Shown in pieces: positions 1-26,608 of a stretch of 64,000 nucleotides of DNA. Source of the stretch: Caulobacter soli (GTDB taxonomy: Bacteria; Pseudomonadota; Alphaproteobacteria; Caulobacterales; Caulobacteraceae). The DNA lies in the NCBI RefSeq assembly GCF_011045195.1, contig NZ_CP049200.1, positions 356,518-420,517 of the forward strand, given 5' to 3'. Positions within the stretch are counted from its first letter, which is position 1. Every line of letters begins with the position of its first letter. The notes under the pieces are model-generated. The model made no database searches, was not told where the DNA came from, and saw only the letters and a program-made list of their open reading frames with translations. The translations under genes were made by a program, and so were the position numbers.

Positions 1-442
1 TCATCCTGATCGGTCCAGCGGGGGTGTTGATGGTGTCGAGATGGAACTGCGGATCGTTGACCTTGGCGTTCAACCAGAAATCGGCCCGTTTGACCGCCGG
101 AAAATCGTCGAGGAGGCGGGGCGAGCGGACCATCTCGCGCGCCATGGGGCCGTAGGCGATCTGATGACCTCGATCATCGCGTATCAGGAACGAAAGCTGG
201 GGTTGACGGCGCTGCAGGTCGTGCAATTTTCGGCTCGGCGTCAGGCGCAAGGCTCCATCACCGGTCCGTGAAAGCGAACCGGCGATGGCCTCGGCGGCGA
301 AGTGGCCGCTCTTGTCACGCAGCAGGCCAGCGCTCCAAAGAGAGCCGAGCACCAATGCGACAGCCGCGAGCATGAGGACGGCCTGCGCGAAGACAAGACG
401 GCGGATCAGTTGCCATCGCATCGAACGCCGCGGTCTTGTCAT
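1..442 (-). CDS. Two-component sensor histidine kinase, N-terminal part only
   Basis: The reading frame starts at 442 and runs off the left edge, giving about 147 residues. The start is MTRPRRSMRWQLIRR, followed by a hydrophobic helix (about residues 13-37) and then a soluble segment that looks like an extracytoplasmic sensor region. Its ATG overlaps the stop of the upstream response regulator (ATGA at 442-439), the usual coupling of a regulator-kinase pair. The dimerisation, histidine and ATPase regions are outside the window, so the kinase call rests on the position behind an OmpR-type regulator and on the membrane topology. It is inferred to sense an envelope signal and phosphorylate the neighbouring regulator. 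Confidence 0.75.
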   Translation of the reverse strand, partial: MTRPRRSMRWQLIRRLVFAQAVLMLAAVALVLGSLWSAGLLRDKSGHFAAEAIAGSLSRTGDGALRLTPSRKLHDLQRRQPQLSFLIRDDRGHQIAYGPMAREMVRSPRLLDDFPAVKRADFWLNAKVNDPQFHLDTINTPAGPIRM

Positions 443-1113
443 GGCGCGGCTCGGATCAAATAGCCGACGCCGCGGATGGCGTGGATCTCCACGCCGGCCG
501 AAGCTTCGACAAGCTTGCGGCGAAGCCGCGAGATGTGGGCGTCAAGCGTATTGGACTGGATGTCGTCGTCGAACCCGTAGACGGCGTCCTCCAACGCGCT
601 GCGCAGCACGGTCCGGCCACGACGCCGCATCAAGGTGACCAGGACCCGCAGTTCACGCCGAGGCAGATCAAGACGGCGGTCTCCAACCTGAGCTTCGTCG
701 TTGGTGAGATCGTACTGAAGGCGCCCAAGCCTTACCGGTTCGGTGATCATGGTGACGGGACGACGCCGCACCGCGCGCACTCTGGCCAAGAGTTCCTCGA
801 CGGCGAACGGCTTGGCCAGATAGTCGTCGGCGCCGAGATCAAGACCCGCTACCCGATCCGACATTTCTCCGCGCGCGGTCAGGACAATGATCGGAACACC
901 GGGGCGGCGCAGACGCAGAATGGGAATGAGGCCAAGGCCCTCGCCGTCGGGCAAGGCTCGATCCAGCAGCACCGCGTCGTGATCTCCCGATTGGGCTGCT
1001 TCTTCGGCGTCGGCGAGACTGCCGACATGATCGACGACCAATCCGTGACGCTCCAAGGCCGCGCACAGCGCGGAGGCCAGCTCAAGCTCATCTTCGATCA
1101 GCAACACCTTCAC
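439..1113 (-). CDS. OmpR/PhoB-family DNA-binding response regulator
   Basis: The 224-residue protein has a receiver domain (about 1-115) with the acidic pocket IEDE near residues 6-9, the phosphoacceptor Asp51 in LLDRALPDG, and the conserved Lys in DDYLAKPF. A winged-helix OmpR-type DNA-binding domain follows (about 125-224, ending DAHISRLRRKL...IRGVGYLI). I chose the GTG at 1113, which gives MKVLLIEDE, the normal N-terminus for the family; an upstream ATG at 1149 would add 12 residues and has no visible ribosome site. It overlaps the downstream kinase gene by 4 bases. The gene upstream on the same strand encodes an outer-membrane barrel, a plausible but unproven target. Confidence 0.9.
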   Translation of the reverse strand: MKVLLIEDELELASALCAALERHGLVVDHVGSLADAEEAAQSGDHDAVLLDRALPDGEGLGLIPILRLRRPGVPIIVLTARGEMSDRVAGLDLGADDYLAKPFAVEELLARVRAVRRRPVTMITEPVRLGRLQYDLTNDEAQVGDRRLDLPRRELRVLVTLMRRRGRTVLRSALEDAVYGFDDDIQSNTLDAHISRLRRKLVEASAGVEIHAIRGVGYLIRAAP

Positions 1114-1152
1114 GGCCACATCCCGTTGAAATCGCCCGGAGGATCGCATCCT

Positions 1153-1180: not shown

Positions 1181-1191
1181 TCGCACGCCGA

Positions 1192-2519: not shown

Positions 2520-2523
2520 CGCC

Positions 2524-3080: not shown

Positions 3081-3448
3081 ACGGTCGCCTTCTTCTGGCT
3101 GGCTTGGGTTTGTCGCCTGGAGCGTCCGTGGCGGCCGTCTCTGAGGCTTGGTCGGGCTCTGCGCGCGCACGCGCTAGGTGACCCGGACCAACACATGGCC
3201 CAGGGCGTTCCGCCGGGGCCGAGACAAACCTGGGGCGAACCAGAGCAGTCCCGTCACGCCGTTGAGTTCAGCGCCGTGCCGGCGTTTGGACCATCCTGGC
3301 TTGTTCACGGCGACGGCGCCTTGGCGGTGGGGCGTAGCGCCGTGAGGCATAACAATCCAGGCGGGATAATAGATTTTCCGTCGATCTACAGTAGAATAAC
3401 GGCGATATTTGAACTACGCTTTCCTCTGTTCAGGACAGGGGGAACAGC
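3081..3448. other. Intergenic region, promoter for the lipoprotein gene
   Basis: There is no convincing gene in these 368 bases. The right half (about 3360-3420) is AT-rich for this genome and probably carries the promoter of the lipoprotein gene at 3449. An 85-codon open frame here has no coding character and overlaps the next start. Confidence 0.5.
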
Positions 3449-4792: not shown

Positions 4793-4807
4793 ACCAGTCG
4801 GCCGAAG

Positions 4808-4838
4808 GATCGTCGCCGCGCAAGGCGCGGCGACGATC
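4808..4838. terminator. Perfect hairpin between convergent genes
   Basis: Arms GATCGTCGCCGCGC (4808-4821) and its exact complement (4825-4838) flank a 3-base loop. The hairpin lies between the lipoprotein stop (4792, plus) and the serine protease stop (4842, minus), so it can serve both strands. Confidence 0.75.
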
Positions 4839-4841
4839 GAC

Positions 4842-8353: not shown

Positions 8354-8457
8354 AATCTGTCCCCCCCAACAGACTGGTTAACCTCGCGACCCTAGCGCCG
8401 ATTGAAATGCACGTCTAGAAAGTGCGATTGATAATCTGCAACCGTCGGCGGTGCGCC

Positions 8458-8886
8458 TTAATCTTGGCGTAGGTGACAAGCAGGCGCCGGGCTTCGAAAG
8501 CTTCGGTCGCGACCATGGCACGGGTCGGTGCAAGTGGTCAACTTATTTGACTTATAGCATATCTTATTGGGAATACTAGAAACTTTCTCTTCTACGAGAA
8601 TGCTTTCATAGTCCTGACCTCCGTAGAATATTCCGATGATGATAACTTCAGCGTCTTTCACGGTGTAAGTGATGGTGGTCCGCCGAAAGGGGAGGGTGCG
8701 TAGGCCGGGCCTTACGTCGAACCTTGGGGCGCCACGCTCAGGGAAGGCGCTCAACGTCTCGCATCGATCCACGATCGCATTGGTGAAGCGGGTCGCCGTT
8801 GCTGACGAGGCCTCCGCGGCAAGGACCGATAGAGATCAACGAGCTGAGCTTCCACTTCAGGTGTAGGCTATCGTGCGGATGGGCAT
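8458..8886 (-). pseudogene. ParE/RelE-type toxin, disrupted by compensating frameshifts
   Basis: From the ATG at 8886 the frame reads MPIRTIAYT and stops at TGA (8859-8857). The expected next ParE segment, EVEAQLVDLYR, is found one frame over (about 8856-8827). The rest (LAAEASSATATRFTNAIVDR, RPGLRTLPFRRTTITY, IFYGGQDYESIL) returns to the first frame and runs to 8458. Put together this is a normal ParE fold, including the hallmark RPGLRT and FYGGQDYE motifs, plus an unusual 35-residue tail. A truncated product could start at GTG 8772 but would lack the first helices. The upstream minus-strand frame ending at the overlapping TGATG (8888-8884) reads QDIRATLTAEQERATKA, perhaps the end of a cognate antitoxin. 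Confidence 0.7.
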
Positions 8887-9073
8887 CAGGCCTTGGTCGC
8901 GCGCTCTTGTTCTGCCGTTAGCGTTGCGCGGATATCCTGGCTCGACCTTCCGCGCGCTCGCAAGGTTTGCGAACAGCGACAGTCGCAGGGTTTGGAGTCA
9001 GAAAATCAGCCTGGATCGGGCTCGAAATTTTTCGCGTCTAACAATAGTTATCGGAAGAAAGTGCGTTGCAGGC

Positions 9074-9448
9074 TCAGTGAGCGCGCCTATTCGCGCTTAT
9101 TTGTTCCTGCAGCGCTCGGGCCACTGAGCGAGCCGTTTCAGGACCGTCTTCATGTTCGATCTTCCGCACCATGCGGATCTTCTCACGCTCCCACATATCC
9201 TCCGCGAGGCGGTTGAAAATTGTGAAAAAGCCGATCCAGATGCCGGCCACAAGCGGCAAGCAGCCGAGCATCGTGATCCAGCTTGTGAGATTGGTGACGA
9301 GCATTGCTTCCGGATGATCGTTGGGGGTCCTGAAATTCAGGCACCCGACACCAATGACCAGGAGGACGGCCGCCACCGTAATGCGCTGGGCTGGGCGAAA
9401 GTTTGTTTTCATTGGGTTCTTTGGTGCAGAAAAGGGTCGCATACTCAC
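9074..9448 (-). CDS. Small two-helix membrane protein, unknown function
   Basis: The frame gives up to 124 residues. Two hydrophobic helices (about residues 24-42 and 57-78) are followed by a charged amphipathic tail (NRLAEDMWEREKIRMVRKIEHEDGPETARSVARAL). The start is uncertain: GTG at 9448 or ATG at 9412 (MKTNFRPAQ), and neither has a strong ribosome site. No family is recognised. It follows the membrane protein at 9553-10209 on the same strand by 104 bases. Confidence 0.5.
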   Translation of the reverse strand: MSMRPFSAPKNPMKTNFRPAQRITVAAVLLVIGVGCLNFRTPNDHPEAMLVTNLTSWITMLGCLPLVAGIWIGFFTIFNRLAEDMWEREKIRMVRKIEHEDGPETARSVARALQEQISANRRAH

Positions 9449-9552
9449 GTGAGGGTAGCAAATCGGAATTACAGCCTGTTGTATGCGCTTGGACCGGCCT
9501 TTTTGATGTCTTATCGGAAATTGGTCAACTTAATTGACCACATTGAGCTTGG

Positions 9553-10209
9553 CTAGTTGGACGGACGTCGGTTGCGATATCGAGCGGGAGCGACCCGACA
9601 GTGAGGCCGTGCGGCTGATCCAACAGTGAATCCCGTCCCCCGTTGTCGGTATCCCGGGACGCTTGATCTTGCTCGGCTCGATGTCGGTCCTGTGGCGGAC
9701 GACGAGAGGGCGTCGATATATAGCGTCAGGAAGCGCGGTGGCTTGATCTTCCGCCACCGCAGGAAGGTTCTAATGCCGAGGGCCACAACCAGACTGTATC
9801 CAAGGATGAGCTTTAAAACACCGAAGAGTACCAACGCACCCATGATCGAAAGAACAAAAACACCGCCAATACCGGGGCTGGCTCGTTTGCAAACCTGATA
9901 TCCCAGCACTAAACCCAAGACTTGAATCGCTAGGCTGGACGCAATTGCGAGAATGATCCATGACCATCTATCAACCTTGCCCGGCGCTCCACTCCCGATT
10001 GGTTTACTTGCCTGCCTTGCCAAATCGGTTGCTAGCAAGGATACGCCACTGATGCCCAAGAGAGCGGCTGCTACACCGTACATCAAAGCTTCGGGATTCT
10101 TGCTGGCGTCCCCACTGGTCACCCCCTCCAGCAGCACGGCGAACGCCAGCGCCAGGCCGTAGGTCGGGGTCATCTCGAAAGCTTGATGCTTGTCCGACAC
10201 TTCGCTCAT
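9553..10209 (-). CDS. Multi-pass membrane protein, unknown function
   Basis: The 218-residue protein has about four hydrophobic segments (residues 17-29, 43-62, 82-106 and 113-145). The last 55 residues are Ser/Arg-rich and do not look like a folded domain; they might be the result of a frame change, but no alternative frame is clearly better. The start at 10209 is supported by CGGGGGAGT upstream. No family is recognised. Confidence 0.55.
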   Translation of the reverse strand: MSEVSDKHQAFEMTPTYGLALAFAVLLEGVTSGDASKNPEALMYGVAAALLGISGVSLLATDLARQASKPIGSGAPGKVDRWSWIILAIASSLAIQVLGLVLGYQVCKRASPGIGGVFVLSIMGALVLFGVLKLILGYSLVVALGIRTFLRWRKIKPPRFLTLYIDALSSSATGPTSSRARSSVPGYRQRGTGFTVGSAARPHCRVAPARYRNRRPSN

Positions 10210-10361
10210 GACTCCCCCGAGGGTATAGCCCGCCGACTAAGGCGCAGCTTCAAGCTCTGAGTTCTGCACGGCTAGCGAGGGACGGTCCAGCGCGAGACGC
10301 CAGATCACATGTGGGCGCCTTGTGCTCGATGAGCCGGTGGGATTTACGTTGTCTGACTGAT

Positions 10362-10823
10362 TTAATTGAGCTTTTCGATCTTCAATTCGCGAAGCAGCTG
10401 TTCGGCCAAGCCCTTTGCCTTGCCAGGATCGGCGACCAGCTCTTCGATCTCCGCCCTGCGGTCGGCAGGCATCCGCTCAAGCCAATCTTCGCTTTTCATG
10501 TCGTAGTACAGCGACACCACCACGTTGTGGCCGGTCTGCCGAACGTGACGTTCAGCCCAGAGCTTGGCGTTCGGTCGGTTCTTTTCGCCGCAGTCCTGAC
10601 GCTCGGCCTTTTGCGCCATCAGCGTCTCGGTACAGACGAACGGCGTGTTGGTCGGCGCCGGCGGGATCTCGGCGGCTTCCATCGCCTCCCCGATCAGCGT
10701 GATGATCTTAGCCTGAAGGGAGCGTCCCGACTTGGCGCTCTGAGCATGGAGGAAGGCCTCCAACTGGGGGTGCAGTGTGAGCGACACCGCAGTCCGGCCA
10801 TCCACAGTCACATCGTTCGCCAT
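10362..10823 (-). CDS. Ribbon-helix-helix (Arc-type) DNA-binding-like protein
   Basis: The protein is about 153 residues. Its N-terminus (AVSLTLHPQLEAFLHAQSAK, then SGRSLQAKIITLIGEAM) matches the strand-helix-helix pattern of Arc/MetJ RHH proteins, with the 'SGRSLQAKI' turn typical of Arc-like antitoxins or regulators. The remaining hundred residues are unfamiliar, with a helical C-terminus (ADRRAEIEELVADPGKAKGLAEQLLRELKIEKL). The start could be GTG at 10835 or ATG at 10823; neither has a clear ribosome site. No partner toxin is adjacent, although a ParE remnant lies 1.5 kb downstream. A role as transcription regulator is inference. Confidence 0.55.
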   Translation of the reverse strand: MANDVTVDGRTAVSLTLHPQLEAFLHAQSAKSGRSLQAKIITLIGEAMEAAEIPPAPTNTPFVCTETLMAQKAERQDCGEKNRPNAKLWAERHVRQTGHNVVVSLYYDMKSEDWLERMPADRRAEIEELVADPGKAKGLAEQLLRELKIEKLN

Positions 10824-11120: not shown

Positions 11121-13526
11121 CTAGAACCGCAAGGACACTTCGGCCCCGAATTCCTGCGGCCGCCCCGGCGTGTAACGATCGATGCCGAAGCCGCCGAAGT
11201 AGCCCGTGCGGGCCACCTGGTAGAACTTGTCCAGGACGTTGGTCCCGTAGACGCTCGCCTTCCAGCCGCTGCTGGCGCGGGGCACGTAGTCGAGCCGGAA
11301 GCCGACCAGCGCATAGGCCGGCAGCTTGCAAGTGAAGGTCGCGCCCGACGGGCAATCCCACTTGGAGCTGATGCCCTTGACGTCGACGGCGGGGGTCAGG
11401 GTGCCGCCGGCCTGGCCGACATGGATGTCATACTGGATCGCGGCGCTGTAGCTGACCTTCGGTGCGGTGTTGACCGGCGTGTCCAACGTCAGCGACACGG
11501 CGTTGGGAAAGATCTTGTCGTACTCCTGATGCAGGACCGCGACGTTGCCCCGGATCGTCAGGTCGCGCACCGGCCGCCAGAGGACATCGCTCTCAAGACC
11601 CAGTTCATGGGCCGTGGCGGCGCTCTGGACCTGGCGGGTCGAAACCCCGCCGATCAGCACGTTCACGTTCGACTGGATGTCGCTGTACTTCTGATAGAAG
11701 CCCGACAGATTGAGCAGCAGGCTGCGCTCGAACAGCTCGGCCTTGATGCCGGCCTCGTACGACCACAGCTTTTCGGGGTTGTAGTAGGACAGGAACTTGC
11801 CGTCGGCCGGTTGCCCGCCCAGCTGCTGGTTGAACCCGCCCGCATTGTAGCCGTGCGCGGCCGACAGGTAGGTGAACACCTGGTCGTTCCAGCGATAGGA
11901 CAGCTGGACCTTGGGGTCGAAGCCCTCCCAGCTATGGCTGTCGGCGGCGGTGAAGGCCGGACCGGCGCAGTTCTTCACCCCGCCCAGGAACGAGTTGATG
12001 AACCAGCCGCAGGTCAGGGTCTGGGGCGTGGTCGAGCCGGGCAGCGTGCCCACGAAGGTCTTGGTGGTGTCCTCGGCGAAGAAGACGTAGCTCGACCCGG
12101 CCTTGTGATCGTGGGTGTAGCGGCCGCCCACCGTCAGTTCCAGCTTGGGCGTGACCTTGTAGGACGCCTGCGCGAAGGCCGCATAGCTCTCGTACTTCAG
12201 CGAGCTGTCATAGATATAGCCCAGCGGATCGATCCAGTCGGGCCCGGTGTCCTGCAGGAACGTCGTCTTCTGGTTGGCGTAGTAGAGGCCGCCCACGAAG
12301 TTGAGACGGTCGTCCAGCGCCGAGCCGCCCAGCGTCAGTTCCTGGGTGAACTGTTTGGTGCGGGTGTCGTCGTTCTCGGCGTAGATGTCGTTGGGGGTGT
12401 TGTCGCGGGGGGTGTAGTAGGCGGCGCGCGAGTCCCGGTAGGTCGTGACCGAGTGCAGCGCCAGATCGTCGGTGAGCTGATAGTTCAGCCGGTCATTGAA
12501 CGTATAGACCCGCGTGTGGTTGTAGGGTCCCTGACCGGCGTAGCGCCCCGGCGTGGCCGAATCCCCGCCCTTGCCCAGATCGGTGATCAAGCTGCTGGTC
12601 GGCGCGCTCAGGGTCGCCCCGCCATAAACCTGATACTTCTTGCCCAGCACCGGATAGGCGTCGCAGTACGAGACGCTGTGCAGGGCGTTATAGTTCTGGA
12701 TGTAGCCGGCGTTGTTGTCGCAGGCGATGGGAATGGTCGCGCCGCCGTCCGTGCGCGACTGGTTGTACTCGGCCAAGAGGTCGTTGGTCAGACGGCCCTG
12801 ATCGAAGCGAAGCTGGCCGCGCACCGAGCGGTTGTCGATATCGCCGCTGCGGCCGTCATCCAGGACGTGGGTGATGAAGCCCTTGGCGTTCTGGGTCCGG
12901 AAGCTCAGGCGGCCGTAGAGCCCGTCGGCGATCGGCACGTTGAGCGCGCCCTCGGTGTCGATCCTGTCGTAGCTGCCATAGCGGGCCTGCACGTAGCCGC
13001 CGAAGGTCCCGGTCGGCCGCTGGGTCGTCAGCAGCACCGCGCCGGCCGTCGTGTTCTTGCCAAACAACGTGCCTTGCGGGCCCTTGAGCACCTGCAGCGA
13101 GGCCAGGTCATAGAAGTAGAGATCGTTGCCCTCCTGGCGGCTGACATACATCTCGTCGACATAGAAGCCGGCCTTGGCGTCGGAGTTCACCTGGTTGGCG
13201 ACCTGGCCGATGCCGCGGATCGTGAAGCTGGCCGAACCGGACTCCTGGGGCAGCACCTCCAGGTTCGGCACGGCGCCGCGCAGGTCTTGGAAGTTACGGA
13301 CGTTCTGCTGGGCAAGATTGGCGCCCGACAGCACCGTGGCCGACACCGGCGTCGTCGCCAGCTTCTCGGTGCGCTTGCGCGCCGTCACCACGATCTCGCT
13401 GACTTCCGGGGCGCTCACGCCTTCCGAAGCCGAGACGTCCTTCGCCAGGGCGGCGCCGCCCAAGAGGCTGACGGCCAGCGCCGCGCTCGACACCGAAATC
13501 CACACATTCGTCTTTGTTCTTGTCAT
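11121..13526 (-). CDS. TonB-dependent outer-membrane receptor
   Basis: The 801-residue protein has a signal peptide (to about ALAK) and then the short TonB-box-like stretch EVSEIVVTARKR. A plug domain follows (about 50-160, LRGAVPNLEV, IRGIGQ, VLKGPQGTLFGKNTTAGAV), then a 22-strand-type barrel ending EVSLRF with terminal Phe. I chose 13526 because GGGGGA precedes the ATG and the signal peptide begins there. It belongs to the Caulobacterales/sphingomonad TonB receptor expansion that imports carbohydrates, aromatics or siderophores. The neighbours (patatin, 3-hydroxybutyrate dehydrogenase) do not identify the ligand. No SusD-like partner or FecR/sigma pair is present, so regulation is probably by a distal factor. 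Confidence 0.92.
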   Translation of the reverse strand: MTRTKTNVWISVSSAALAVSLLGGAALAKDVSASEGVSAPEVSEIVVTARKRTEKLATTPVSATVLSGANLAQQNVRNFQDLRGAVPNLEVLPQESGSASFTIRGIGQVANQVNSDAKAGFYVDEMYVSRQEGNDLYFYDLASLQVLKGPQGTLFGKNTTAGAVLLTTQRPTGTFGGYVQARYGSYDRIDTEGALNVPIADGLYGRLSFRTQNAKGFITHVLDDGRSGDIDNRSVRGQLRFDQGRLTNDLLAEYNQSRTDGGATIPIACDNNAGYIQNYNALHSVSYCDAYPVLGKKYQVYGGATLSAPTSSLITDLGKGGDSATPGRYAGQGPYNHTRVYTFNDRLNYQLTDDLALHSVTTYRDSRAAYYTPRDNTPNDIYAENDDTRTKQFTQELTLGGSALDDRLNFVGGLYYANQKTTFLQDTGPDWIDPLGYIYDSSLKYESYAAFAQASYKVTPKLELTVGGRYTHDHKAGSSYVFFAEDTTKTFVGTLPGSTTPQTLTCGWFINSFLGGVKNCAGPAFTAADSHSWEGFDPKVQLSYRWNDQVFTYLSAAHGYNAGGFNQQLGGQPADGKFLSYYNPEKLWSYEAGIKAELFERSLLLNLSGFYQKYSDIQSNVNVLIGGVSTRQVQSAATAHELGLESDVLWRPVRDLTIRGNVAVLHQEYDKIFPNAVSLTLDTPVNTAPKVSYSAAIQYDIHVGQAGGTLTPAVDVKGISSKWDCPSGATFTCKLPAYALVGFRLDYVPRASSGWKASVYGTNVLDKFYQVARTGYFGGFGIDRYTPGRPQEFGAEVSLRF

Positions 13527-14132
13527 TCCCCCGACCCCTGCCGCGACGCAGCGCAACGCTGCGTTGGTTACTCCTACTGGTTTGGTGGACAATTGGGTCG
13601 CAGAAAAAGTTCACGCGCCTAGAGCCCAGGTATCCCTGGTCAGATCGCGGCTAGCGCCTCCAGCCCCCCCCCAAGCGCCTTGAGCAAAGCGGGATCGACC
13701 ATACCCGCTGCAACGATAGGAAATCCTCCAGGGTTCGTGTACGGGCCCCGCCTATCGTGAGAAAAACTCGTGCCGCATGACGGGGCCGAAACCTGGAAGG
13801 GCGCGGCGAAACAATCGGGTGCTCGAAGAATCCATCCGGACAGGTTGCGGCGTCGTCCTAAAGCGGCGCGGTCGCAAGGAATGGCGCGCTGCGTCGGCCT
13901 CGCTCCACAATCCAGCACCCAAGGGGCGCCGCAGACCGCCTCGCGCGTCGGGTCTGCGGAGATTGGGCGGCTAAACTGACGTTCCCGACGCCCTATTGGA
14001 TGGGACCGGGGTGCGTTCGCGTTCAACAAGACCTGAACGCCGCGAAGCCGCCACGATCTGGGGAGCTTGCTGCACCGCACCATCTGACGATGGTCAGGTT
14101 GGTCGTCGCCCCAATCCCCGGAAGGATCCCTG
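13527..14132. other. Intergenic region between divergent genes
   Basis: These 606 bases separate the receptor (minus) from the operon starting at 14133 (plus). Open frames here have no coding character except perhaps a short minus-strand tail near 13640-13700 (VDPALLKALGGGLEALAAI) with a GGAGG-like site upstream; that may be a gene fragment. Both promoters must lie here. Confidence 0.4.
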
Positions 14133-16715: not shown

Positions 16716-17648
16716 CTAGGCGTCGGGTGCGAGCGCTTCCGCCATCTCACGTAGGCGAAAGACCATCTTCTGATCGCTCTCGGCCAGTTTTTCGTAGCCC
16801 GCCCACGCCATCTCCTCGCTCAGGCCCTCGCGACCAGTGATGACGTGCCGGATGGGGTCGAAGTGCTGGAGCTGACCGATGAAGTGGCGGTTGTAGTATC
16901 GCGCCTCATCCACGCTCATCATGGTGTTAGAGAACGCGCCGTCGAAGTTGCCTAGCGCCAGGATCACCAGCGTGCAGGGATCCAGAGGCAGCATGTCGAC
17001 ATAGGGCGTCATGCCCGGCAGCGGCATACTGAGCGCGGGGTTGGAGGGCGCGGAGATCGTGAGAACGGGCGTGGTTGAAGCCCGCAACGGGATTGGCGAG
17101 CGCAGCACCCAAAGCCCGCAGCTCTCGAACTCTTCGCGGCTCCACAGCATGTTGGCGGCCATCAGGTTCATGAACGCCTTGGCGCCACCAGGCCGAGCGC
17201 GGATCGCGGCGTACATCGTCCGCTCCTCGTCGGTGAACGGGATCTTGCTATTGGGATCGGCCGCCATTTCGATCAGCTCCAACGAGGTCTGGAGCGCATG
17301 GGGCGTGCGGGCTTTGAAGTGCCGAACGAGCGCGTAGAGAACAGAGCGATCGCTGTGATCGAGGCTGTCTGAACGCCCCTCGGCGATCTTGCGCCAAGTG
17401 TCGCTTCTCGAAATCGGGGTTTCGATGCGCCTGTTGATCGTCGTCTCCACCGAGACCGGCGCGCCCTCGCCGTAGTGAACGTAGAAGTCCCGCTCGAACC
17501 CCAGGGTCTCGATCGACCGGACACTCCAGATCAGCCGCGAGCCGTTCTTGGCGACCGTCGCGATCTTCTTGCGCTCGGCGTCGACGGCAAAATTCCGCAG
17601 ATAGAACTGCGGGGCGTAGTGGTGATCGCGCGGTTCCGACGAGTTCAT
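16716..17648 (-). CDS. DUF4238-family protein
   Basis: The 310-residue soluble protein opens with DHHYAPQFYLRNFA, the diagnostic start of DUF4238 proteins (HHYxPxFYLRxF). There is no signal peptide or membrane helix. Members of this family are scattered in bacteria, often in variable regions, and have no established activity; conserved His/Asp residues make a nuclease-like role imaginable but untested. The start follows GAGG. It converges on bdhA and diverges from the tubulin-like gene, from which it is separated by 493 bases. Confidence 0.75.
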   Translation of the reverse strand: MNSSEPRDHHYAPQFYLRNFAVDAERKKIATVAKNGSRLIWSVRSIETLGFERDFYVHYGEGAPVSVETTINRRIETPISRSDTWRKIAEGRSDSLDHSDRSVLYALVRHFKARTPHALQTSLELIEMAADPNSKIPFTDEERTMYAAIRARPGGAKAFMNLMAANMLWSREEFESCGLWVLRSPIPLRASTTPVLTISAPSNPALSMPLPGMTPYVDMLPLDPCTLVILALGNFDGAFSNTMMSVDEARYYNRHFIGQLQHFDPIRHVITGREGLSEEMAWAGYEKLAESDQKMVFRLREMAEALAPDA

Positions 17649-18141
17649 GCAAGCCTCGGACTATCTCAAGATGAGGCTGGCGGGATTTTGGGCGGCCTCC
17701 ATCGCGTCACCGACTTCACCGGCCAATCGGCCACCGGAACGTCGCGCGCTATCGGTCGCATCCCTCGATCTGATGTTGTCGCCCAAGAGGATGGGCCCGA
17801 GTCGCCGAATTTCGAAATGGCGTTCGCTGAAACGCCGTCGCTGGGATGAGCGCCGACGAACTGACCGACGCGGCTGGCGATTGGAGCGGACATGACCTGA
17901 TCGAAACGCGGCATCTCTGCCGTCGAACGTCATTCGACAAGGGCGCCATAGCCGGGTGTTCAGCCAGCGGGTCAATTAAGCCAGATGGGGAACGGTGTCA
18001 GGAGCTGCACATCAGCGGGAAGGTTCCCGCTCCGGTTACCGTTGGTCAGTGCAGGCGCCACACAACCTTACACGGCATTGGCGATCGTCACAAAACCTTT
18101 GCGGCAGGTTGTTAGCGATTTCCCGCTTGGGGGAAATTCTT
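17649..18141. other. Divergent intergenic region before the tubulin-like operon
   Basis: I see no credible gene here; the open frames on both strands lack coding bias. The region must hold promoters for the DUF4238 gene (minus) and the tubulin-like operon (plus). CTTGGGGGAAATTCTT at its right end is the ribosome site for the latter. Confidence 0.5.
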
Positions 18142-21117
18142 ATGAATCATTTGCTGATCGGGCTGGGCGGCACCGGCGGCCGAGTCCTCAAGGCGTTCCG
18201 CAAGGCCGTCTATGAGGGGCATCGGGACGAGGCGCCTCCGAACGTCACGCTGGACTATCTGTTTGTCGACTCCGACCCTGAATCCTTCCGGGACAAAGGC
18301 GATTGGACGGTGTTGGGCAAGTCGTTGTTCCTGCCCAACCGCTGTCACTTCCCGATCTCGCGCGGCGACCTGAAGTCGGTGCTCGACGACATCAACCAGC
18401 ACCCGAACGTCGCGCCGTGGCTGGGCGACCGTGCGGCTTGGGGAGATATCCTGGCCGGCCTGAAGGAAGACTCCGCTGGCGGCCAGAAGCGTCGGTTGGG
18501 GCGTTTCCTGTTCGCGCTGCGGGCCAAGGCCTTCGTCGCGGCCGTGCGCGCCGCGGTGGGGGACATGCAGACCCGCTCCAAGACGCCGGACATCACCTTT
18601 CACGTCTTCACCGGCTTCGCGGGCGGCACCGGGTCGGGCTCCGTGATCGACGTGGTGGCTCAACTGCGCAAGGAATATCCCGAGATCGGTCGCCACAAGA
18701 TCATTCTCTACGGCTACATCCCCGATCTCAGCCCGCCGCAGAATTGGCTGGCGGGCGGCAACTATTTCGCGAACGGTTACGCGGCCATCCAGGAATTGAA
18801 CGCCTTGCTGGCGGGCGCTTGGAAGCCCTTCGACGTGGTCACCGGTGAGCGCATGAACCTGCCCACCGAGGTCTGGACCGACTGCACCTATGTGTTCTCA
18901 GACGACAATGATCGCGGATATCGCGCCAGCATCCAGACCGAGTTGATGGATATCCTGGCCGATTTCGTCTACCACAAGATCGTTCTGGCCAGCCGGACCA
19001 ACTGGGGCGCGCTGAAGCGCGCCGAAGCCTTCGAGAACGTCGCCGCGACGCCGGAAACCGACGGGGCCTCGCGCAAGGGCCAGCGGGCGGTGCAGTTCCT
19101 CAGCTTCGGAATGCGGCGTATCGCCTTCCCCGAGCAGCGCATTCGCGAATACCTGACCTTCGACTTCGCCACCCAGGCCTATCGCCAGCTGCAGTTCAAC
19201 AACTGGCAGGCCGACAGCGGCTTTCTCGAACAGCCCAGACCCCGGGCCGACGCGGAATTCGCCGCGGACCGCAAGCAGATGGAGGACTGGCGCCTCACGG
19301 ACGATCAGTTGCGCCTGAGCCGGCCGATCATCGAGACCGAGAACTCCAAGCGCTGGCTGCGGTTCGACGAGGAGTGGGCCGCCTGGGAGACCAACCTTGT
19401 CTCGCGGTCCCACACCGGAGACCGCACCTCGTGGCTGGGGGAGCTGCGCAAGCTGTACCAGACCGCCTGGGACCAGGGTTACCGCTCCTCGGGCGTTCAG
19501 CAGTTCTTCCAGGTCGCCGAACGCGACCAGAAGAACTACGCCGATGAAATCCGCAACCGCGTGCAGCGGACCCTGTTCGACCAGTGGCAGGGCGGGGAGC
19601 GATCGCTCAACGAGGTCGGCCGCGTGGTCACTGCGGTGATCCACCAGTTGGAGGCCCGTGCGCCGGTTCTGGAGAAAAGCGGCGTCGACCTCGATGCGTT
19701 GGATCAGGACCTGACCCGCCAGCTAAGCGAGCTACAGGTGCGCTGGTCGAAGATCGCCCTGGGCCTGCTGGGCGCCCACAAGCGCGAATTGCAGAACGCC
19801 GGGCTGTTGCTGCGTCAGCAGATGTCGGCGCGAACCAATCTGGCCGGAGCACGGTTCGCCCGCGCCCTGATCAACCAGGTGATCGCGCGCCTGCAGGAGC
19901 TGAAGGCCCAGATCGACAGCGCCGAGGCCCTGATCGACGCGGCCGGCCGGCGCGCCCTGGAGGTGGCCCAGGCGCGATCGGGCCAAGATCAGGACGGCAC
20001 GACGACGGACGGGTACGTAACCACGGTCGAAGACGCCAAGGCCGTGGCCGCCACTCGGCGCCGCCTGGTGTTGGACGAGGGCGAGCAGCGCACTCACACG
20101 ACGGCCGTGCGCCAGGCGGTGATCGCGGCCCTGGGCCAGGAGCCCGATTTCCGCGGCCTGAATCGCCGGCTGGGCGAGGTCGACGTCCGGGACGTCATCG
20201 TGGCGACCTGCGCGCGGAACGTGGCCTCCAGCCACGCCCGGCTGGTCCGCGAGGACAGCGACCGGGTGATCGGGGTCTCGATCATCGAGAAGCTGGTCCA
20301 CCTGTGGGGAGACAATCCCGCCAAGCTGCGCCGCGAGGTCGAGGATATCGTTCGCAGCGCCGGCCGTTTCGTGGTGTTCGACGACACTGAAAAAAACAAG
20401 AAACAGACGGCCGCGGCGCGGGCCATCGAGGCCTACGCCATCATGATGCCCGAGCCCAAGGAGCACGGCGAGTTCGTCAAGGCCCTGAAGACGGCGTTCC
20501 GCGACGCCTGCAACGCCGCCAGCGTCGAGTTCGTGCCGGTGGAGGGCGATCGCCAGAACGAGATCAGCCTGATCGGCATCGTCTACCTGTTCCCGCTGCG
20601 CTACATGCGCCTGCTCAAGCAGTTGAAGGGCAAATACGAGGAACGAGTGGCCCAAAGCCCGCCGGGCCGCGCCGCCCTGGAGATCCACATCGAGGACGGC
20701 GGCAAGCTGCCTTCGCTGTTCCTCAAGGACTCCAAGAGCACGGCTGAGGAGGTGCGGCGCCGGCTATTGCTGGCCTATGGCGCGGGCCTGATCCTGGAGG
20801 TCGGCTCCGGCAAGGATCGGCGGCTGGTCATTCCGCGCAAGGACGATCTGGGCCTCGACCTGGAGCCGATCGAACTGGGTCGCAGCCTGCCCGACGCCGC
20901 CGACCAACTGACCGAGGAGCGCTCGGCGGCCCTGGCGGGTGAGCTTGAGCGCCGGCTGTCGGCCGCCGACACGAGCACCGCGCGCGAGGCCGTCCTCAAG
21001 GTCGTCGGCGTGATCCGCACCGACCGGAACGACGATCCCAGCGACAAGGTGGTCCTGGCCTGGAGTCAGGCGGCCCGCGAAGCCATCGCGATTCTCGAAG
21101 GAAAGGCTTCCCTGTGA
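18142..21117 (+). CDS. Tubulin-like GTPase (Tubulin_2 / FtsZ-like family) with long helical region
   Basis: The 991-residue protein begins with NHLLIGLGGTGGRVLKAF, the tubulin/FtsZ nucleotide loop T1. It has FVDSDPESF near residues 39-47 (loop T3 region) and GFAGGTGSGS near 158-167, the tubulin signature (GGGTGSG). This matches the 'tubulin-like' family, a bacterial FtsZ/tubulin branch proposed to act in membrane remodelling. After a GTPase core of about 300-350 residues comes a helical, coiled-coil-like middle (about 490-640) and a C-terminal domain with no family I know. It is about twice the length of FtsZ. The start at 18142 has GGGGGAAA upstream. The stop overlaps the GTG of the next gene, so the two are translationally coupled. 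It is cytoplasmic by sequence. Confidence 0.85.
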   Translation: MNHLLIGLGGTGGRVLKAFRKAVYEGHRDEAPPNVTLDYLFVDSDPESFRDKGDWTVLGKSLFLPNRCHFPISRGDLKSVLDDINQHPNVAPWLGDRAAWGDILAGLKEDSAGGQKRRLGRFLFALRAKAFVAAVRAAVGDMQTRSKTPDITFHVFTGFAGGTGSGSVIDVVAQLRKEYPEIGRHKIILYGYIPDLSPPQNWLAGGNYFANGYAAIQELNALLAGAWKPFDVVTGERMNLPTEVWTDCTYVFSDDNDRGYRASIQTELMDILADFVYHKIVLASRTNWGALKRAEAFENVAATPETDGASRKGQRAVQFLSFGMRRIAFPEQRIREYLTFDFATQAYRQLQFNNWQADSGFLEQPRPRADAEFAADRKQMEDWRLTDDQLRLSRPIIETENSKRWLRFDEEWAAWETNLVSRSHTGDRTSWLGELRKLYQTAWDQGYRSSGVQQFFQVAERDQKNYADEIRNRVQRTLFDQWQGGERSLNEVGRVVTAVIHQLEARAPVLEKSGVDLDALDQDLTRQLSELQVRWSKIALGLLGAHKRELQNAGLLLRQQMSARTNLAGARFARALINQVIARLQELKAQIDSAEALIDAAGRRALEVAQARSGQDQDGTTTDGYVTTVEDAKAVAATRRRLVLDEGEQRTHTTAVRQAVIAALGQEPDFRGLNRRLGEVDVRDVIVATCARNVASSHARLVREDSDRVIGVSIIEKLVHLWGDNPAKLRREVEDIVRSAGRFVVFDDTEKNKKQTAAARAIEAYAIMMPEPKEHGEFVKALKTAFRDACNAASVEFVPVEGDRQNEISLIGIVYLFPLRYMRLLKQLKGKYEERVAQSPPGRAALEIHIEDGGKLPSLFLKDSKSTAEEVRRRLLLAYGAGLILEVGSGKDRRLVIPRKDDLGLDLEPIELGRSLPDAADQLTEERSAALAGELERRLSAADTSTAREAVLKVVGVIRTDRNDDPSDKVVLAWSQAAREAIAILEGKASL

Positions 21118-22643
21118 TTCAGCAAGGCCGTTGCACCAATCTTCCGCAGATGTGCAGCCTATCGGCGAGCGGCGAACTGATTGAGATGCCTTCGCCGGAT
21201 ACGCGTTGTCCCGGATGCGGCATGCCGCTGCAGGCCATGCGGCAGGCCGACAAGGCCGGCGGCCTGAAGGTGGGCGCCTGGGCGCGGCCCGCCGCGATCA
21301 TCGGCGGCGCCGTCTTGGCCCTGGTGCTCGCCGGGTGGCTGCTGAGCCTGGTGGTGAAGCCGACCACGGGTCAGGTGGACTTGGTGCTGTCGGGGTCGAA
21401 TTCGATCGGCGGCAAGCTGGGACCGGCCTTGGCCAAGGCCTGGCTTGAAAGCGAAGGCGGCCAAAAGGTGCGTGTCGAAGAGACCGGCGAGGAAGAAGCG
21501 CGGGTCAGCGGCCGGGTGAATGGCGAAGCTGTGACCATTGTGGTCAAGGCGCACGACACGGGAAGCGGCTTTAAGGACGCAGCGGCGGGCCGGGCGGACA
21601 TCGTGATGGCGTCGCGATCGATGAAGGGCAAGGAAGGCGACGCCCTGGGGCCGGCCTGGACCAATCCGACCGCCGAGCACGTGATCGCCTATGACGGCAT
21701 CGCCGTGATCGTATCGCCGCACAACACCGTCGAAACCCTCTCGATCCGCCAACTGCACGATATCTACACCGGTCAGATCACCGATTGGGGGCAGGTCGGC
21801 GGCTTGTCGGGCCGCCGTATCCGCGTCTTCGCGCGCGAACAGGGGTCGGGCACTCGCGACGGCTTCACGGCCAAGGCGCTGCAAGGCGACGACATCGTCG
21901 GCGCGACCGAGATCAAGGACAGCGCCAAGCTGGAGAGCATGGTGGCCGAGGATCGCGACGCCATCGGCTTCGTCGCCATGCCCTATGTGAAAACCGCCGT
22001 CGCCCTCTCGATTTCGGCGGGTCAGGTCGATGCCTTCGCGCCGACGATGTTCACCGTGCGCAGCGAACGCTATCCGCTGTTTCGTCGCCTTTACCTCTAC
22101 ACCACCGGCGACAACCCACGCGCCGACCCGTTCCTGGCCTTCGTCCGTTCCGACGCCGGTCAGAAGGTGGTCAAGGAGACCGGCTTCGTGGACCTGCGGG
22201 TCCAGACTGATTTCACCCGTGCTGAGAGGGTGAGTGAGCACGAGATTGGCCGCTGCGGCCTGTCCAGCCGCTGGGATGGCGATCCCAATGAATATTGCAG
22301 CTTGATCAAGACGGCCAATTTGCAGCCGGCCGTCATCAAGTTTCGGAGCGGAAGCGATGAATTGGACAGCTTGGCCCGAGACGACGTGCAGCGCTTTCTG
22401 CGGGCCGCTCAGGCCAACCCCAACCGCACACTCATTCTGGCGGGTCACGCCGACAGCTTGGGGCGCTATAAGACCAACTGCCGGCTTTCCCTGTTCCGAG
22501 CGGAGGCTGTCCGCAAGGTGCTGGCGCAGAACGGCGTGACCAACACCTCGATCCGCGGTTTCTGTGACGAAATCCCGCGGGGCGACAACGAAACGCCTGA
22601 CGGGCGTGACGCCAATCGGCGGGTAGAACTGCTGGTAAAATAG
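21114..22643 (+). CDS. Zinc ribbon - membrane helix - PstS-like binding domain - OmpA-domain chimera
   Basis: The 509-residue protein starts at GTG 21114 (GTGA overlap with the tubulin-like gene). Domains in order are: a four-cysteine zinc-ribbon-like head (Cys at GRC, QMC and RCPGC, residues about 7-36); one membrane helix (about 61-81, AAIIGGAVLALVLAGWLLSLV); a PstS-like periplasmic phosphate/anion-binding domain (about 88-375, VDLVLSGSNSIGG, ADIVMASRSMK, REQGSGTRDGF); and a C-terminal OmpA peptidoglycan-binding domain (about 405-508, IKFRSGSDELD, AGHADSLGRYKTNCRLSLFRAEAVR, ANRRVELLV). The inferred topology has the ribbon in the cytoplasm near the tubulin-like partner and the binding and cell-wall domains in the periplasm. 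The protein would link a cytoplasmic GTPase to the wall. Confidence 0.85.
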   Translation: MIQQGRCTNLPQMCSLSASGELIEMPSPDTRCPGCGMPLQAMRQADKAGGLKVGAWARPAAIIGGAVLALVLAGWLLSLVVKPTTGQVDLVLSGSNSIGGKLGPALAKAWLESEGGQKVRVEETGEEEARVSGRVNGEAVTIVVKAHDTGSGFKDAAAGRADIVMASRSMKGKEGDALGPAWTNPTAEHVIAYDGIAVIVSPHNTVETLSIRQLHDIYTGQITDWGQVGGLSGRRIRVFAREQGSGTRDGFTAKALQGDDIVGATEIKDSAKLESMVAEDRDAIGFVAMPYVKTAVALSISAGQVDAFAPTMFTVRSERYPLFRRLYLYTTGDNPRADPFLAFVRSDAGQKVVKETGFVDLRVQTDFTRAERVSEHEIGRCGLSSRWDGDPNEYCSLIKTANLQPAVIKFRSGSDELDSLARDDVQRFLRAAQANPNRTLILAGHADSLGRYKTNCRLSLFRAEAVRKVLAQNGVTNTSIRGFCDEIPRGDNETPDGRDANRRVELLVK

Positions 22644-23288: not shown

Positions 23289-25685
23289 TCAGAACGAGGC
23301 GGCCGCTCGGCCGGAGAAGCCGCGCCAGTTGCCGGTCAGCATGGGAGCGGCCCAATAATAAGGGCGGGTCCAGTCATCGCGCCCGTGGGGGCCCTGGATC
23401 TCGCCGGCGATCATCCGACGCTGGATGCTCGCCAAGGCCTCGTCCTTGCCCACGCCGTCGATCAGCCAGTGGTCGAAGAAGCTCAGGATCAACTGGGTCT
23501 GGGCGTCGTTATCGACCTTCCAAGCGGTCGAGATGACGGAGCGCACCCCGGCTGCGCTGAGCAGTCGATCGACCGACATGTCGCCGCCCGGCACGAGACT
23601 GGCGCCCGAGCGGCCCGTCGCACAGGCGCTGAGGACGACCAGATCAGCCGACGATCGCTCTTGGGCGAGGTCTTCGAGTGGGATTGTCGAGCCGTCGCCG
23701 AGCAACAAGCGCGAGCGGCGGGGTGAAAGCGTGTCCGGCAGGCAGTGGGCGGCGCAGGCCACGACAGAGTGTGTCGCCATGGCGTTCAGCACGGCCTGGC
23801 GCGTGAAATCGCGCTCGACCGCGAAGGTGATCTCGCCGAAGGCTTGCGCGGTGCGCCGGACGCCTTCCAGTTCGGACATGATCTGGATCGGGCCGGCCAG
23901 ACCGGGCGCGCCGCGGCCAGTTCCGCCCAGGAAGAAGCGCGGCGGTCGCACGAGATCCTGCGCCAGGATCTGAGCGTCGGTCGGTGCGCGGCAAATGGTC
24001 AAACGCTCGACCAGCCAGGATTTGCCGTCGTGAAGACTCGACCAGGGCAGGACTTGCAACGCGCCGCTGGCCGCGATCACGAGACGCTCGACGCCGTCCT
24101 CGCGCAACGCCGCCTCCACCGGGGTGATCAAATGGTCGAAGAGATGGGCCAGTTCGGGAAGGTCGGCCAGCGCAGCGCGCGCTTCGATGTTCTGAAGCGC
24201 GGCGAAGACCCAGGCGTTGATCTGTCGCGCCGACACGGGCAGCTGCCGCGACAGGGTCCGCTTCGACGTCCTGAGGATCAGGCTGGTTTGTTCCGCGCCC
24301 GGCATGACTTGGATCAGGGCGTCGCTCGCCATGAACGCCGTGGGCAAATCATGGAAGATCGGCCGGGCGCTCGCCGTTTCCGCCTGTTCGAGCGCTAGCC
24401 GTATGTGGTCGCCAAGTTCCGACATCAAGGTCAGCGCCCGGCTCGGCTCGCCAGCGTTTCGGGCGGCGTAGTAGATCATCGCCGCGGCGTTCTCGGGCCC
24501 GAGCAGCAAGGCGGCGCCTGGATCAAGACCACTACGCTCATCACCGGCTTCGGGAGCGATTTCGTTCTGGCGCCTGAGGGCCATGACCATGCTCGCCTCG
24601 GCCAGACGTCCTTCGGCGATCAGATCGGACACCAGGTGCGAAAACAGCCTGGCGAGCCGGCCATCCTCGTTCACGCCCAAGCTATCGTCGATGCTCGCCA
24701 AGTCCGAGCGAAGCGAAATGACTTCGGCCACGGCCAACTTCGCCAGCAGGATGCGCTCGGCGGCGGAGCCCGCTGAAGCGCCGAGCAGGTCCAAGACCCG
24801 CCAGCGCAACGCCTGCTTGTTGCGAACGTCGCGTGCGAAGACCAAAGCTTTGCAGACGATGTTGCGAACCTTCGTCGGGTCCGCGCCCAGGTCCAACACC
24901 ACCTCGGCCCGCCCCAGAAGAAGCTCTGGCGCAAGATCGTAGCTGACCTGACCCATGCGCCAGGCGGCCTCGGCCTCGGCGACGGCCGTTCGCACGATGG
25001 CGTCGACGTCCCGGGCGTCGAGCGCCTCGTAGCTATCCTTCATGGCCGCCATCAGACCTATCCAGGGCGAGGCCTGCCTCGCGGTCTTGCCCCGGCGATT
25101 GCGATGGGCCAGCAGCTCCGCGTCGAGGACGCTGATCGCCTCCTCGGTTCGCCCGGCGTGCCAGAGGGCGTCGGCGGAAGACATGGCCAGGAGCCAGGGC
25201 GGCGGCGGATTAAGTCGCTGAATCTCCGCCTCCAGCTGGTCCCAGAGACGATCGCAATAGGCGGCGTTTTCAGCTTCGCCCAGAGCCCGGTAGGAAGATC
25301 CCAGCGCCGCGAGCAATTCGAGCCGCTCCACCCTGGCGCCGTCACGGTCTTGCAGATCGCCGAGCGCCGGGACGCCAAAGCCGATGCATTGGCCATAGTC
25401 GCCCGCCTGGGCCAAGGCCACCGCGTAGAGCGCTCCGGCGCGCGTCAGCGCCTTGCGATTTTCATCGTCCAGCCGGAGGAGCGCGTCGGTGAACTCTTGC
25501 GGATGCGGCCGCGTCTCCAGCCGGACCTCTATACGCGCGAGCTTGATCAGGATGACGCAGGCGTGCGCCGCCAACACCCGAAATTGCAGCGCCTCGCCGG
25601 ATTTCTGCATCCGCTCGGCCTTGGCCCGCGCCGCGGCCGAGCTGATGCGGGCGAAGGTTGAATCTAGCGCCTTCCAGCCCGTCAT
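23289..25685 (-). CDS. TPR-like helical protein with C-terminal CHAT protease domain
   Basis: The 798-residue protein has a long helical N-terminal region resembling degenerate TPR repeats (about 1-480, many ALAxxG and AxYCDRLWDQLEAE helices). A CHAT (caspase-HetF-associated-with-TPR) domain follows, with catalytic His647 in VVACAAHCLPD and Cys688 in LVVLSACATGRSG, and the family tail VRSVISTAWKVDNDAQTQLILSFF. CHAT proteases are caspase/separase relatives used in bacterial conflict and cell-death pathways. The ATG (25685) overlaps the stop of the 308-aa gene upstream (ATGA). It is convergent with the tubulin-like operon. A partner substrate is not evident; gasdermin-like or Csx-type neighbours are absent. 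Confidence 0.85.
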   Translation of the reverse strand: MTGWKALDSTFARISSAAARAKAERMQKSGEALQFRVLAAHACVILIKLARIEVRLETRPHPQEFTDALLRLDDENRKALTRAGALYAVALAQAGDYGQCIGFGVPALGDLQDRDGARVERLELLAALGSSYRALGEAENAAYCDRLWDQLEAEIQRLNPPPPWLLAMSSADALWHAGRTEEAISVLDAELLAHRNRRGKTARQASPWIGLMAAMKDSYEALDARDVDAIVRTAVAEAEAAWRMGQVSYDLAPELLLGRAEVVLDLGADPTKVRNIVCKALVFARDVRNKQALRWRVLDLLGASAGSAAERILLAKLAVAEVISLRSDLASIDDSLGVNEDGRLARLFSHLVSDLIAEGRLAEASMVMALRRQNEIAPEAGDERSGLDPGAALLLGPENAAAMIYYAARNAGEPSRALTLMSELGDHIRLALEQAETASARPIFHDLPTAFMASDALIQVMPGAEQTSLILRTSKRTLSRQLPVSARQINAWVFAALQNIEARAALADLPELAHLFDHLITPVEAALREDGVERLVIAASGALQVLPWSSLHDGKSWLVERLTICRAPTDAQILAQDLVRPPRFFLGGTGRGAPGLAGPIQIMSELEGVRRTAQAFGEITFAVERDFTRQAVLNAMATHSVVACAAHCLPDTLSPRRSRLLLGDGSTIPLEDLAQERSSADLVVLSACATGRSGASLVPGGDMSVDRLLSAAGVRSVISTAWKVDNDAQTQLILSFFDHWLIDGVGKDEALASIQRRMIAGEIQGPHGRDDWTRPYYWAAPMLTGNWRGFSGRAAASF

Positions 25686-26608
25686 GTCTTGAGGCCCAGC
25701 GTGAAAAGGCCCCGGTAGACCGTGGTCTGGAGAGACTGATCGGCGATCTGTCGCGCCAGAAGGCGAATGGTTTCCAGACCAAGCCACGCAAAGTTTCTGT
25801 CTGGCGCGGGCCGGGGCAGCGCCGTCAGGGCGCGATCGGTCACCACCCCCACGGTCGTGCAGCGGGCAAAGCGATCCGACATCGTGAACCCGGTGCGCGC
25901 AGCGCTGCTGAACGGTTCGGGAACAAGGGTGGGATTTGCAAAGCGGAGTTCGGCATGGAGCGGGGAAGGCGCGACCATGGCGCAGGCGGCCTGGCGCCCG
26001 CGCGCGTCGGACGAAATTTCGAAGACATAGAGGAAGCCTGTGACTTTCCGATCCATGCCCAATCGGTATGCGTAGGACGCGCCCGGCGGCAGACGGCGCA
26101 GGAGGGCTTGTTCTTCCAGTTCGTCGCGCTCGGCCGCTCCGCGCGCCCGCGTCAGCTCGAGCACTTCGATGTCGAGGGGCGCAGCCGAGAAAGCCATCAG
26201 CGCATGGAGGAAATCGGCCGCCGTCGCGCTGTCCCCGGCCGGTGTAGGGAGTATGCCTCTATAGGATTCGAAGGTGCCATAGGCATTCTTGACGAGGCGA
26301 AGATTGAACTCTTCATAAGAATACTGATCTGTCAAAAGCCTCCATGCCTCCTCTGAGGGTTCGGTCAACTCATGGAGATGGAAGAATTTGGCGATAATCC
26401 TCAGTTCGGCTTCCTTGAAGATTCTGGGATCGGCGCAGCGTTTCGACCAGGTCGACTGATCACGAAACCCGATGAGCGGTATGAACTGTTTCTCAAAACC
26501 CTCGACGACGACTTTCTGAAGCCTTGCATGCTCCAGAGGGTTGGTGCTGTAGCGCTGGGGCGAATAGAGCCTGCGCAAGATCGCGATCTTGTTCCTAAAA
26601 TCATTCAT
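25682..26608 (-). CDS. Unknown protein coupled to the CHAT protease
   Basis: The 308-residue protein begins MNDFRNKIAILRRLYSPQRY at 26608, where AGGGCGG precedes the ATG. It is soluble and mostly helical in the first half (KRCADPRIFKEAELRIIAKFFHLHEL), with a mixed second half (SYAYRLGMDRKVTGFLYVFE...). The first part recalls the short helical adaptor domains that sit before effector modules in bacterial conflict operons, but I recognise no named family. Its stop overlaps the CHAT gene start by 4 bases, so the two are made together, and it is likely the regulator or sensor of the protease. That role is inference. Confidence 0.65.
   Translation of the reverse strand: MNDFRNKIAILRRLYSPQRYSTNPLEHARLQKVVVEGFEKQFIPLIGFRDQSTWSKRCADPRIFKEAELRIIAKFFHLHELTEPSEEAWRLLTDQYSYEEFNLRLVKNAYGTFESYRGILPTPAGDSATAADFLHALMAFSAAPLDIEVLELTRARGAAERDELEEQALLRRLPPGASYAYRLGMDRKVTGFLYVFEISSDARGRQAACAMVAPSPLHAELRFANPTLVPEPFSSAARTGFTMSDRFARCTTVGVVTDRALTALPRPAPDRNFAWLGLETIRLLARQIADQSLQTTVYRGLFTLGLKT

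Follow-up and report, generated by a model that had tools for sequence, protein, structure and literature searches.

Two overlapping genes in a 64,000-nucleotide (nt) stretch of Caulobacter soli DNA (contig NZ_CP049200.1, positions 356,518 to 420,517; hereafter the window) raise the question of how a tubulin-like protein of the cytoplasm might be connected to the outside of the cell. The upstream gene encodes a tubulin-like protein of 991 amino acids (aa), and the downstream one a 509-aa partner that combines a four-cysteine ribbon, one membrane helix, a PstS-like domain and an OmpA-type domain. Surveying 64 loci that carry related tubulin-like genes, we found that the ribbon and helix of the partner are constant and that its outer part is exchanged. 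The pair and the parts of the partner are as follows (all coordinates are those of the window).

18142..21117, + strand: tubulin-like protein, 991 aa, Tubulin_2 / FtsZl1 (Pfam PF13809)
21114..21117, + strand: GTGA overlap of the tubulin stop (TGA, 21115-21117) with the partner start (GTG at 21114)
21114..22643, + strand: partner protein, 509 aa, with ribbon, membrane helix, PstS-like and OmpA parts (sequence, profiles and predicted model)
21126..21227, + strand: four-Cys ribbon, residues 5-38, with Cys 7, 14, 32 and 35 (all four invariant in 24 aligned ribbons)
21291..21356, + strand: membrane helix, about residues 60-81 (the only hydrophobic stretch; a low-confidence part of the model)
21378..22196, + strand: PstS-like domain, about residues 89-361 (PBP_like_2, E 1.3e-29)
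22323..22640, + strand: OmpA-type domain, about residues 404-509 (Pfam OmpA, E 1.5e-12)

A tubulin-like gene and its membrane-spanning partner

A sequence-only reading of this DNA had proposed a tubulin-superfamily protein whose stop overlaps the GTG of a four-part partner, and the architecture it described was borne out for both proteins. The tubulin-like protein matched Pfam Tubulin_2 (PF13809) at E 1.3e-48 and 166.5 bits, against a curated cut-off of 27, and carries both a GLGGTGG and a GFAGGTGSGS loop; NCBIfam and PADLOC scans returned no family name for it. Its open reading frame (ORF) extends from 17995 to 21117 (+), and the ATG at 18142, which yields 991 aa, is backed by a plausible ribosome site upstream of it, GGGGGAAA, and agrees with the N-terminus of the relatives, MNHLxIGLGGTGG.

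The outer domain of the partner matched the PBP_like_2 profile and has a predicted PstS fold; its TIGR02136 score (170.2 bits) lay under the curated cut-off of 206.6 bits. In the aligned partners, the columns of the putative pocket were kept in 29 (R241), 32 (S245), 31 (G246), 29 (T247) and 29 (D162) of 32 rows, and from work on PstS we take these five positions to be pocket residues of the PstS type. The OmpA-type domain scored 48.2 bits with PF00691, above the cut-off of 27.2, and kept D447 in 31/32 and R462 in 32/32 rows, presumably the Asp and Arg with which OmpA binds peptidoglycan. Weak matches of the partner to ZorB were confined to its OmpA-type domain and were disregarded. The database entry for the partner (P0121) is 473 aa long because it begins at a later ATG, whereby the ribbon is lost; the GTG start at 21114 is supported because the nearest relative (P0122, 527 aa) and the surveyed loci have the ribbon.

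The ribbon and helix recur beside the tubulin-like gene

A search with the tubulin sequence alone confirmed no locus; a scan of a genome collection with the tubulin alignment as query gave 63, which with the window make up the 64 loci. The ribbon gene started less than 150 nt past the tubulin stop in 46 of these, and a ribbon lay near the tubulin-like gene in 10 more (five downstream on the same strand at 168-935 nt, four divergent upstream and one upstream on the same strand). No ribbon was found in 8/64 loci, five of which have less than 1 kb of downstream DNA covered. The true misses at the locus were L053, L062 and L066, and the ribbons of the L062 and L066 genomes sit elsewhere in the genome (L134 and L135). 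Whole genomes, available for 50 of the 63 loci, contained a ribbon in 49/50 cases, the exception being the genome of L053. The ribbon profile was seeded by ribbons picked by eye and iterated on the surveyed loci; 21 of the 50 genomes supplied rows to it, and among the remaining 29 a ribbon was present in 28. Named rows belong to Pseudomonadota, Acidobacteriota, Verrucomicrobiota, Bacteroidota, Thermodesulfobacteriota, Chlorobiota, Nitrospirota, Cyanobacteriota and Fidelibacterota; many are metagenome-assembled genomes, in which odd single placements may be binning errors.

A membrane helix followed the ribbon in 67 of 68 ribbon ORFs (L043 is borderline), and the mean net charge across the 68 was +2.2 before the helix and +0.4 after it. 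This supports the topology proposed from the sequence, with the ribbon inside and the PstS-like and OmpA parts outside.

A further protein of about 255 aa with hydrophobic ends (cluster c1) occurs in 15 loci (e.g., L044:3791-4570), mostly just upstream of the tubulin-like gene. Two of its members were tested and gave no Pfam family over cut-off, and it is absent from the window.

The outer part of the partner is exchanged

Conservation of the pair, which the sequence-only reading had offered as a check on itself, was found in the neighbourhood survey: a PstS-like+OmpA partner stands beside the tubulin-like gene in 27/64 loci, a count that leaves out weak profile matches in L051, L057 and L061 (46-77 bits). 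Beyond that reading, the survey identified the ribbon-transmembrane (ribbon-TM) part as the constant element and the ligand-binding part as the exchanged one. In 13/64 loci, the ribbon-TM protein is short and a TAXI-type protein (PF16868) is encoded separately after it (12 by clustering, with Pfam checked on four, and L022 by tblastn). FGE-like domains form the outer part in 6/64 loci and SBP_bac_3 with LysM in L063; Ig domains occur in L037 and an M48 peptidase on the second ribbon protein of L047, and L049 and L064 show weak vWA matches that stay below threshold. In the L066 genome, a ribbon-TM-NMT1-OmpA gene adjoins genes for an ABC permease and an ATPase, all on the same strand. Four solute-binding Pfam families (PBP_like_2, NMT1_3, SBP_bac_3 and NMT1_2), and also two wall-binding families, were thus found on or beside the ribbon-TM unit.

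Mapped on a quick tree of the tubulin-like proteins, seven outer-part labels required 16 changes, compared with a minimum of 6 and a shuffled mean of 30.8, so that the labels are clustered but change repeatedly. The tree holds 61 of the 64 rows (L069, L070 and L071 were too short), labels L022 as 'other', and drew long-branch warnings, including one for the window's own branch. Within it, four FGE loci cluster with full support in a larger group of eight rows, whose other four are PstS-OmpA loci; this is likely an exchange of the outer part. Distances among the tubulin-like proteins and among their PstS-OmpA partners agreed over the 27 loci (Mantel r 0.79; 0/5000 permutations), an agreement that is also expected from mere gene linkage.

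The short ribbon-TM proteins of L016, L017, L019-L022, L029, L058, L059 and L065 finish with another half-motif (e.g., GNCSEADER) that would be placed on the outer side of the membrane.

The tubulin fold appears split by an insert, and the window copy is altered after its presumed H7 helix

Further features of the tubulin-like protein were defined on an alignment of 97 rows (the window included) and on the predicted model.

18160..18180, + strand: T1-type loop GLGGTGG, residues 7-13 (every residue present in 94/97 aligned rows)
18613..18639, + strand: T4-type loop GFAGGTGSG, residues 158-166 (F159 is L in 96/97 rows)
19024..19056, + strand: segment after the presumed H7 helix, residues 295-305 (ENxENGDxxPE in relatives; altered at 296, 300 and 301)
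19195..20421, + strand: helical/coiled insert, about residues 352-760, limits inferred (DSSP string of the model and span of aligned residues)
20425..20727, + strand: C-terminal half of the tubulin fold, about residues 762-862, limits inferred (DSSP and VIA ranges)

Both the nucleotide-binding and the C-terminal halves of the FtsZ/tubulin fold are present in the predicted model, in which structure comparison aligned 303-312 residues spread over positions 1..843. By DSSP, the model has an FtsZ-like N-terminal domain, then a coiled coil and then a mainly helical C-terminal part. In the model, the tubulin fold looks complete yet interrupted by an insert of ~400 residues. This claim rests on the predicted model because a sequence profile search of PDB with the tubulin alignment returned coiled-coil proteins, short matches to the tubulin T4 region and YejA, with nothing better than E 0.033.

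Relative to the alignment, the window copy has an intact T1 loop and a T4 loop altered at one residue. The GGGTG(S/T)G signature is present as AGGTGSG, its first G being replaced by A as in 96/97 rows. Residues 296, 300 and 301 are A, V and A in the window copy, where the aligned rows have N, G and D in 91, 93 and 93 of 97. Judged from these changes in the T7 region, turnover by the window copy may be slow or lacking altogether, and this copy could possibly bind nucleotide without normal turnover.

Genomic setting and occurrence

The genome has two contigs, and the pair sits on the one named C2. The repC gene of C2 and the 420,617 bases of the contig behind P0001 suggest that it is probably a secondary replicon of the repABC type. 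The genome contains one Tubulin_2 match and one clear ribbon, with four further ribbon matches at E 0.6-0.8. A relative of the tubulin-like protein was found in none of 100 related genomes searched, leaving the organism's own (1/101); counting the latter, Tubulin_2 matches occurred in 7/289 genomes of the class and 8/398 of the phylum. The phage search found no relative, and a single plasmid record held one, at 28% identity. Queries for synteny of the flanks gave many paralogues for the downstream kinase, and the upstream patatin matched nothing at E 1e-100 in the 20 relatives searched. A Pfam scan of eight neighbouring ORFs of the window detected no pst transporter genes, no vWA protein and no GTPase match, though conflict-system GTPase families may not be in Pfam.

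Several other genes of the window were recorded. A DUF4238 protein (16716-17648, - strand; E 6.6e-15) is divergent from the tubulin-like gene across a 493-nt gap, and an 832-aa protein with a CHAT protease domain (23289-25787, - strand; E 6.6e-36) is convergent with the pair, 645 nt off. Farther upstream, a 733-aa ORF (11421-13622, + strand) has no Pfam or NCBIfam match; an 823-aa ORF overlaps it on the opposite strand, and the 733-aa ORF may therefore not be a gene.

Two loci in other genomes were also recorded. At L131 (genome G661; 117-10763, - strand), genes for CHAT, caspase+DUF4384, two ribbon-TM proteins, Tubulin_2, DUF4384 and OmpA are closely ordered. At L053 (5313-12556, + strand), a 1430-aa Tubulin_2 protein with a long N-terminal extension stands beside AAA and PNP_UDP/VMAP-C genes, in a genome that has no ribbon anywhere; the arrangement resembles that of vWA-MoxR type conflict loci, here with a tubulin part.

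A proposed tethered tubulin with exchangeable sensors, and its alternatives

From the domains, the predicted folds, the gene order and the retention of the ribbon beside varying outer parts, we propose, at a probability of about 0.45, that the tubulin-like protein is tethered by the ribbon to exchangeable outer sensors, and that ligand or wall engagement alters how it gathers. The tubulin-like protein would bind nucleotide in the cytoplasm and assemble head to tail, and the ribbon of the partner would dock on it on the cytoplasmic side of the inner membrane. Outside, the PstS-like domain would bind phosphate or an anion like it, while the OmpA domain would grip peptidoglycan, either engagement altering the gathering of the tubulin-like protein at the membrane. 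Ribbon and helix would act as a constant plug across bacteria, with the outer part swapped to fit other ligands. Sensing or capture is favoured over a pure anchor because unrelated binding proteins fill the same slot, and fusions to kinases show the same outer module paired with a signalling domain in the cytoplasm. We put forward more tentatively the wider idea that ribbon-TM is a general plug joining one branch of bacterial tubulins to exchangeable envelope receptors, the polymer being the cytoplasmic output of ligand sensing and wall contact.

A number of observations weigh against this proposal. The ribbon profile is fitted to the same loci that it scores, and the L053 genome is without any ribbon. 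The window copy lacks conserved residues of the presumed T7 region. The outer module also occurs in other company: 13 of the 120 homologues listed are kinase-fused PstS-OmpA proteins (Ser/Thr kinase fusions among P0123, P0124 and P0132-P0149), and other PstS-OmpA proteins are secreted and have no ribbon (e.g., G351). A ribbon-PstS-OmpA gene in G975 has no tubulin within the 16 kb taken, and G066 and G062 have a ribbon but no Tubulin_2 match. Finally, Tubulin_2 occurs in 8 genomes of the phylum, and 6 of them give no ribbon match, which indicates that the ribbon belongs to one branch.

The ribbon search of the 398 phylum genomes matched six, including G609 and G553 (taken as raw search matches, with ORFs viewed for G609 alone); E was below 1e-10 for the window's genome and for G661, where Tubulin_2 is adjacent. 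In the order to which G400 belongs, 399 genomes were searched and three had a ribbon at E <= 1e-6 (G400, G1059 and G975), the G1059 ribbon having the same coordinates as that of G661. The tie between ribbon and tubulin is thus strong starting from the tubulin branch and weaker starting from the ribbon, owing to the ribbons of G975, G066 and G062 that have no nearby or matching tubulin. The sequence-only reading had held that finding the two genes independently elsewhere would count against a link between them. This is in part the case, since PstS-OmpA occurs kinase-fused, secreted, or with a ribbon and no tubulin in 16 kb; the pair is nonetheless conserved.

The ribbon-TM genes of G066 (L132, 7857-10184) and G062 (L133, 5739-8342) each have a second TM gene alongside, both genomes belonging to the same taxonomic order as the window, and that of G066 encodes SH3 domains by Pfam.

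Among the alternatives, an FtsZl1-type protein might bend or constrict the inner membrane, the ribbon-TM-OmpA chain serving as a wall anchor only and ligand binding being secondary. Such a remodelling role was proposed for the family from its vWA, OmpA and GTPase neighbours (PMC2875224), and the predicted tubulin fold could polymerise; we nevertheless consider it unlikely, as a slot shared by four unrelated solute-binding families is hard to fit with a pure anchor and the putative pocket residues are conserved. The tubulin-like protein could instead be a scaffold for uptake, clustering tethered binding proteins and, with them, transporters at sites in the envelope so as to boost the capture of scarce solutes. 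The permease and ATPase genes beside the ribbon gene of the L066 genome, the TAXI-type proteins of 13 loci and the suggestion of transport or signalling by a reviewer of PMC2875224 would suit it. The eight window ORFs scanned by Pfam include no permease or transport ATPase, and modules of the FGE, Ig and LysM kinds do not form part of transport systems, which makes this explanation improbable.

About as improbable is a stress or conflict system, in which the pair would sense envelope damage and work with CHAT- or caspase-type proteases. It draws on the convergent CHAT gene downstream of the pair in the window, on the G661 locus, where all the genes listed above share one strand, and on L053, where Tubulin_2 beside AAA and PNP_UDP/VMAP-C genes represents a type described in PMC7159879. 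Against it, the window's CHAT gene lies on the opposite strand, the tubulin-like protein has no PADLOC match, and the CHAT proteins of the window and G661 and the caspase of G661, used as queries against the ORFs of the loci, matched nothing at E 1e-4, single-sequence queries being insensitive. That the two genes are functionally unrelated, chance neighbours is scarcely credible: PstS-OmpA and ribbon are indeed found apart elsewhere, but the ribbon gene directly follows the tubulin-like gene in 46 loci from several phyla.

Relation to known systems

FtsZ is tethered to the inner membrane by FtsA, ZipA and SepF, and by analogy the tubulin homologue described here would likewise be held there by a partner. 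None of FtsA, ZipA and SepF is known to have a solute-binding and wall-binding outer part. The kinase-type (P0124, P0149) and secreted (G351) PstS-OmpA proteins share the outer module of the window protein at about 30-44% identity and have a kinase or a signal peptide in place of the ribbon.

The FtsZl1/Tubulin_2 family and its OmpA and vWA neighbours were described by Makarova and Koonin in 2010 (PMC2875224). The sequence-only reading knew of no described pathway with this fusion; that needs qualifying, given that publication of the link between the family and OmpA and the relatives of the fusion in several phyla. FtsZl1 was defined there by an FtsZ-like N-terminal domain, a coiled-coil middle and a mostly helical C-terminal part, and a vWA protein occurs in the majority of its operons without being defining. 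The window protein shares this domain order and the OmpA neighbours, and is a member by Pfam. T6-H7 and a related C-terminal part eluded the authors of that paper, and our predicted model seems to supply them. A reviewer of the same paper named a TRAP-type neighbour in Polaromonas, which we take to be of the TAXI type; the authors set such cases aside as present in few organisms. In its main text, the words 'zinc' and 'ribbon' do not occur. The GTPase-centric conflict systems of PMC7159879, which contain vWA proteins, also include a tubulin homologue with a coiled coil, membrane-associated partners and zinc ribbons. They differ in that the ribbons are on the GTPases and in being centred on GTPases (TRAFAC) together with GAP1.

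In the literature searched, outside which most subscription journals lie, no report of a ribbon tether or of an exchange of the outer part was found. What is new here is the proposed ribbon tether, the exchange of the outer part and a tubulin fold that looks complete but split by an insert; the family and its OmpA/vWA links were already known. If the proposal is true, this branch would comprise bacterial tubulin-type proteins with membrane receptors swapped like plugs, and would provide a receptor-cytoskeleton link across the bacterial envelope. A kept patch together with a swapped outer part suggests a cytoskeletal protein wired to interchangeable external sensors.

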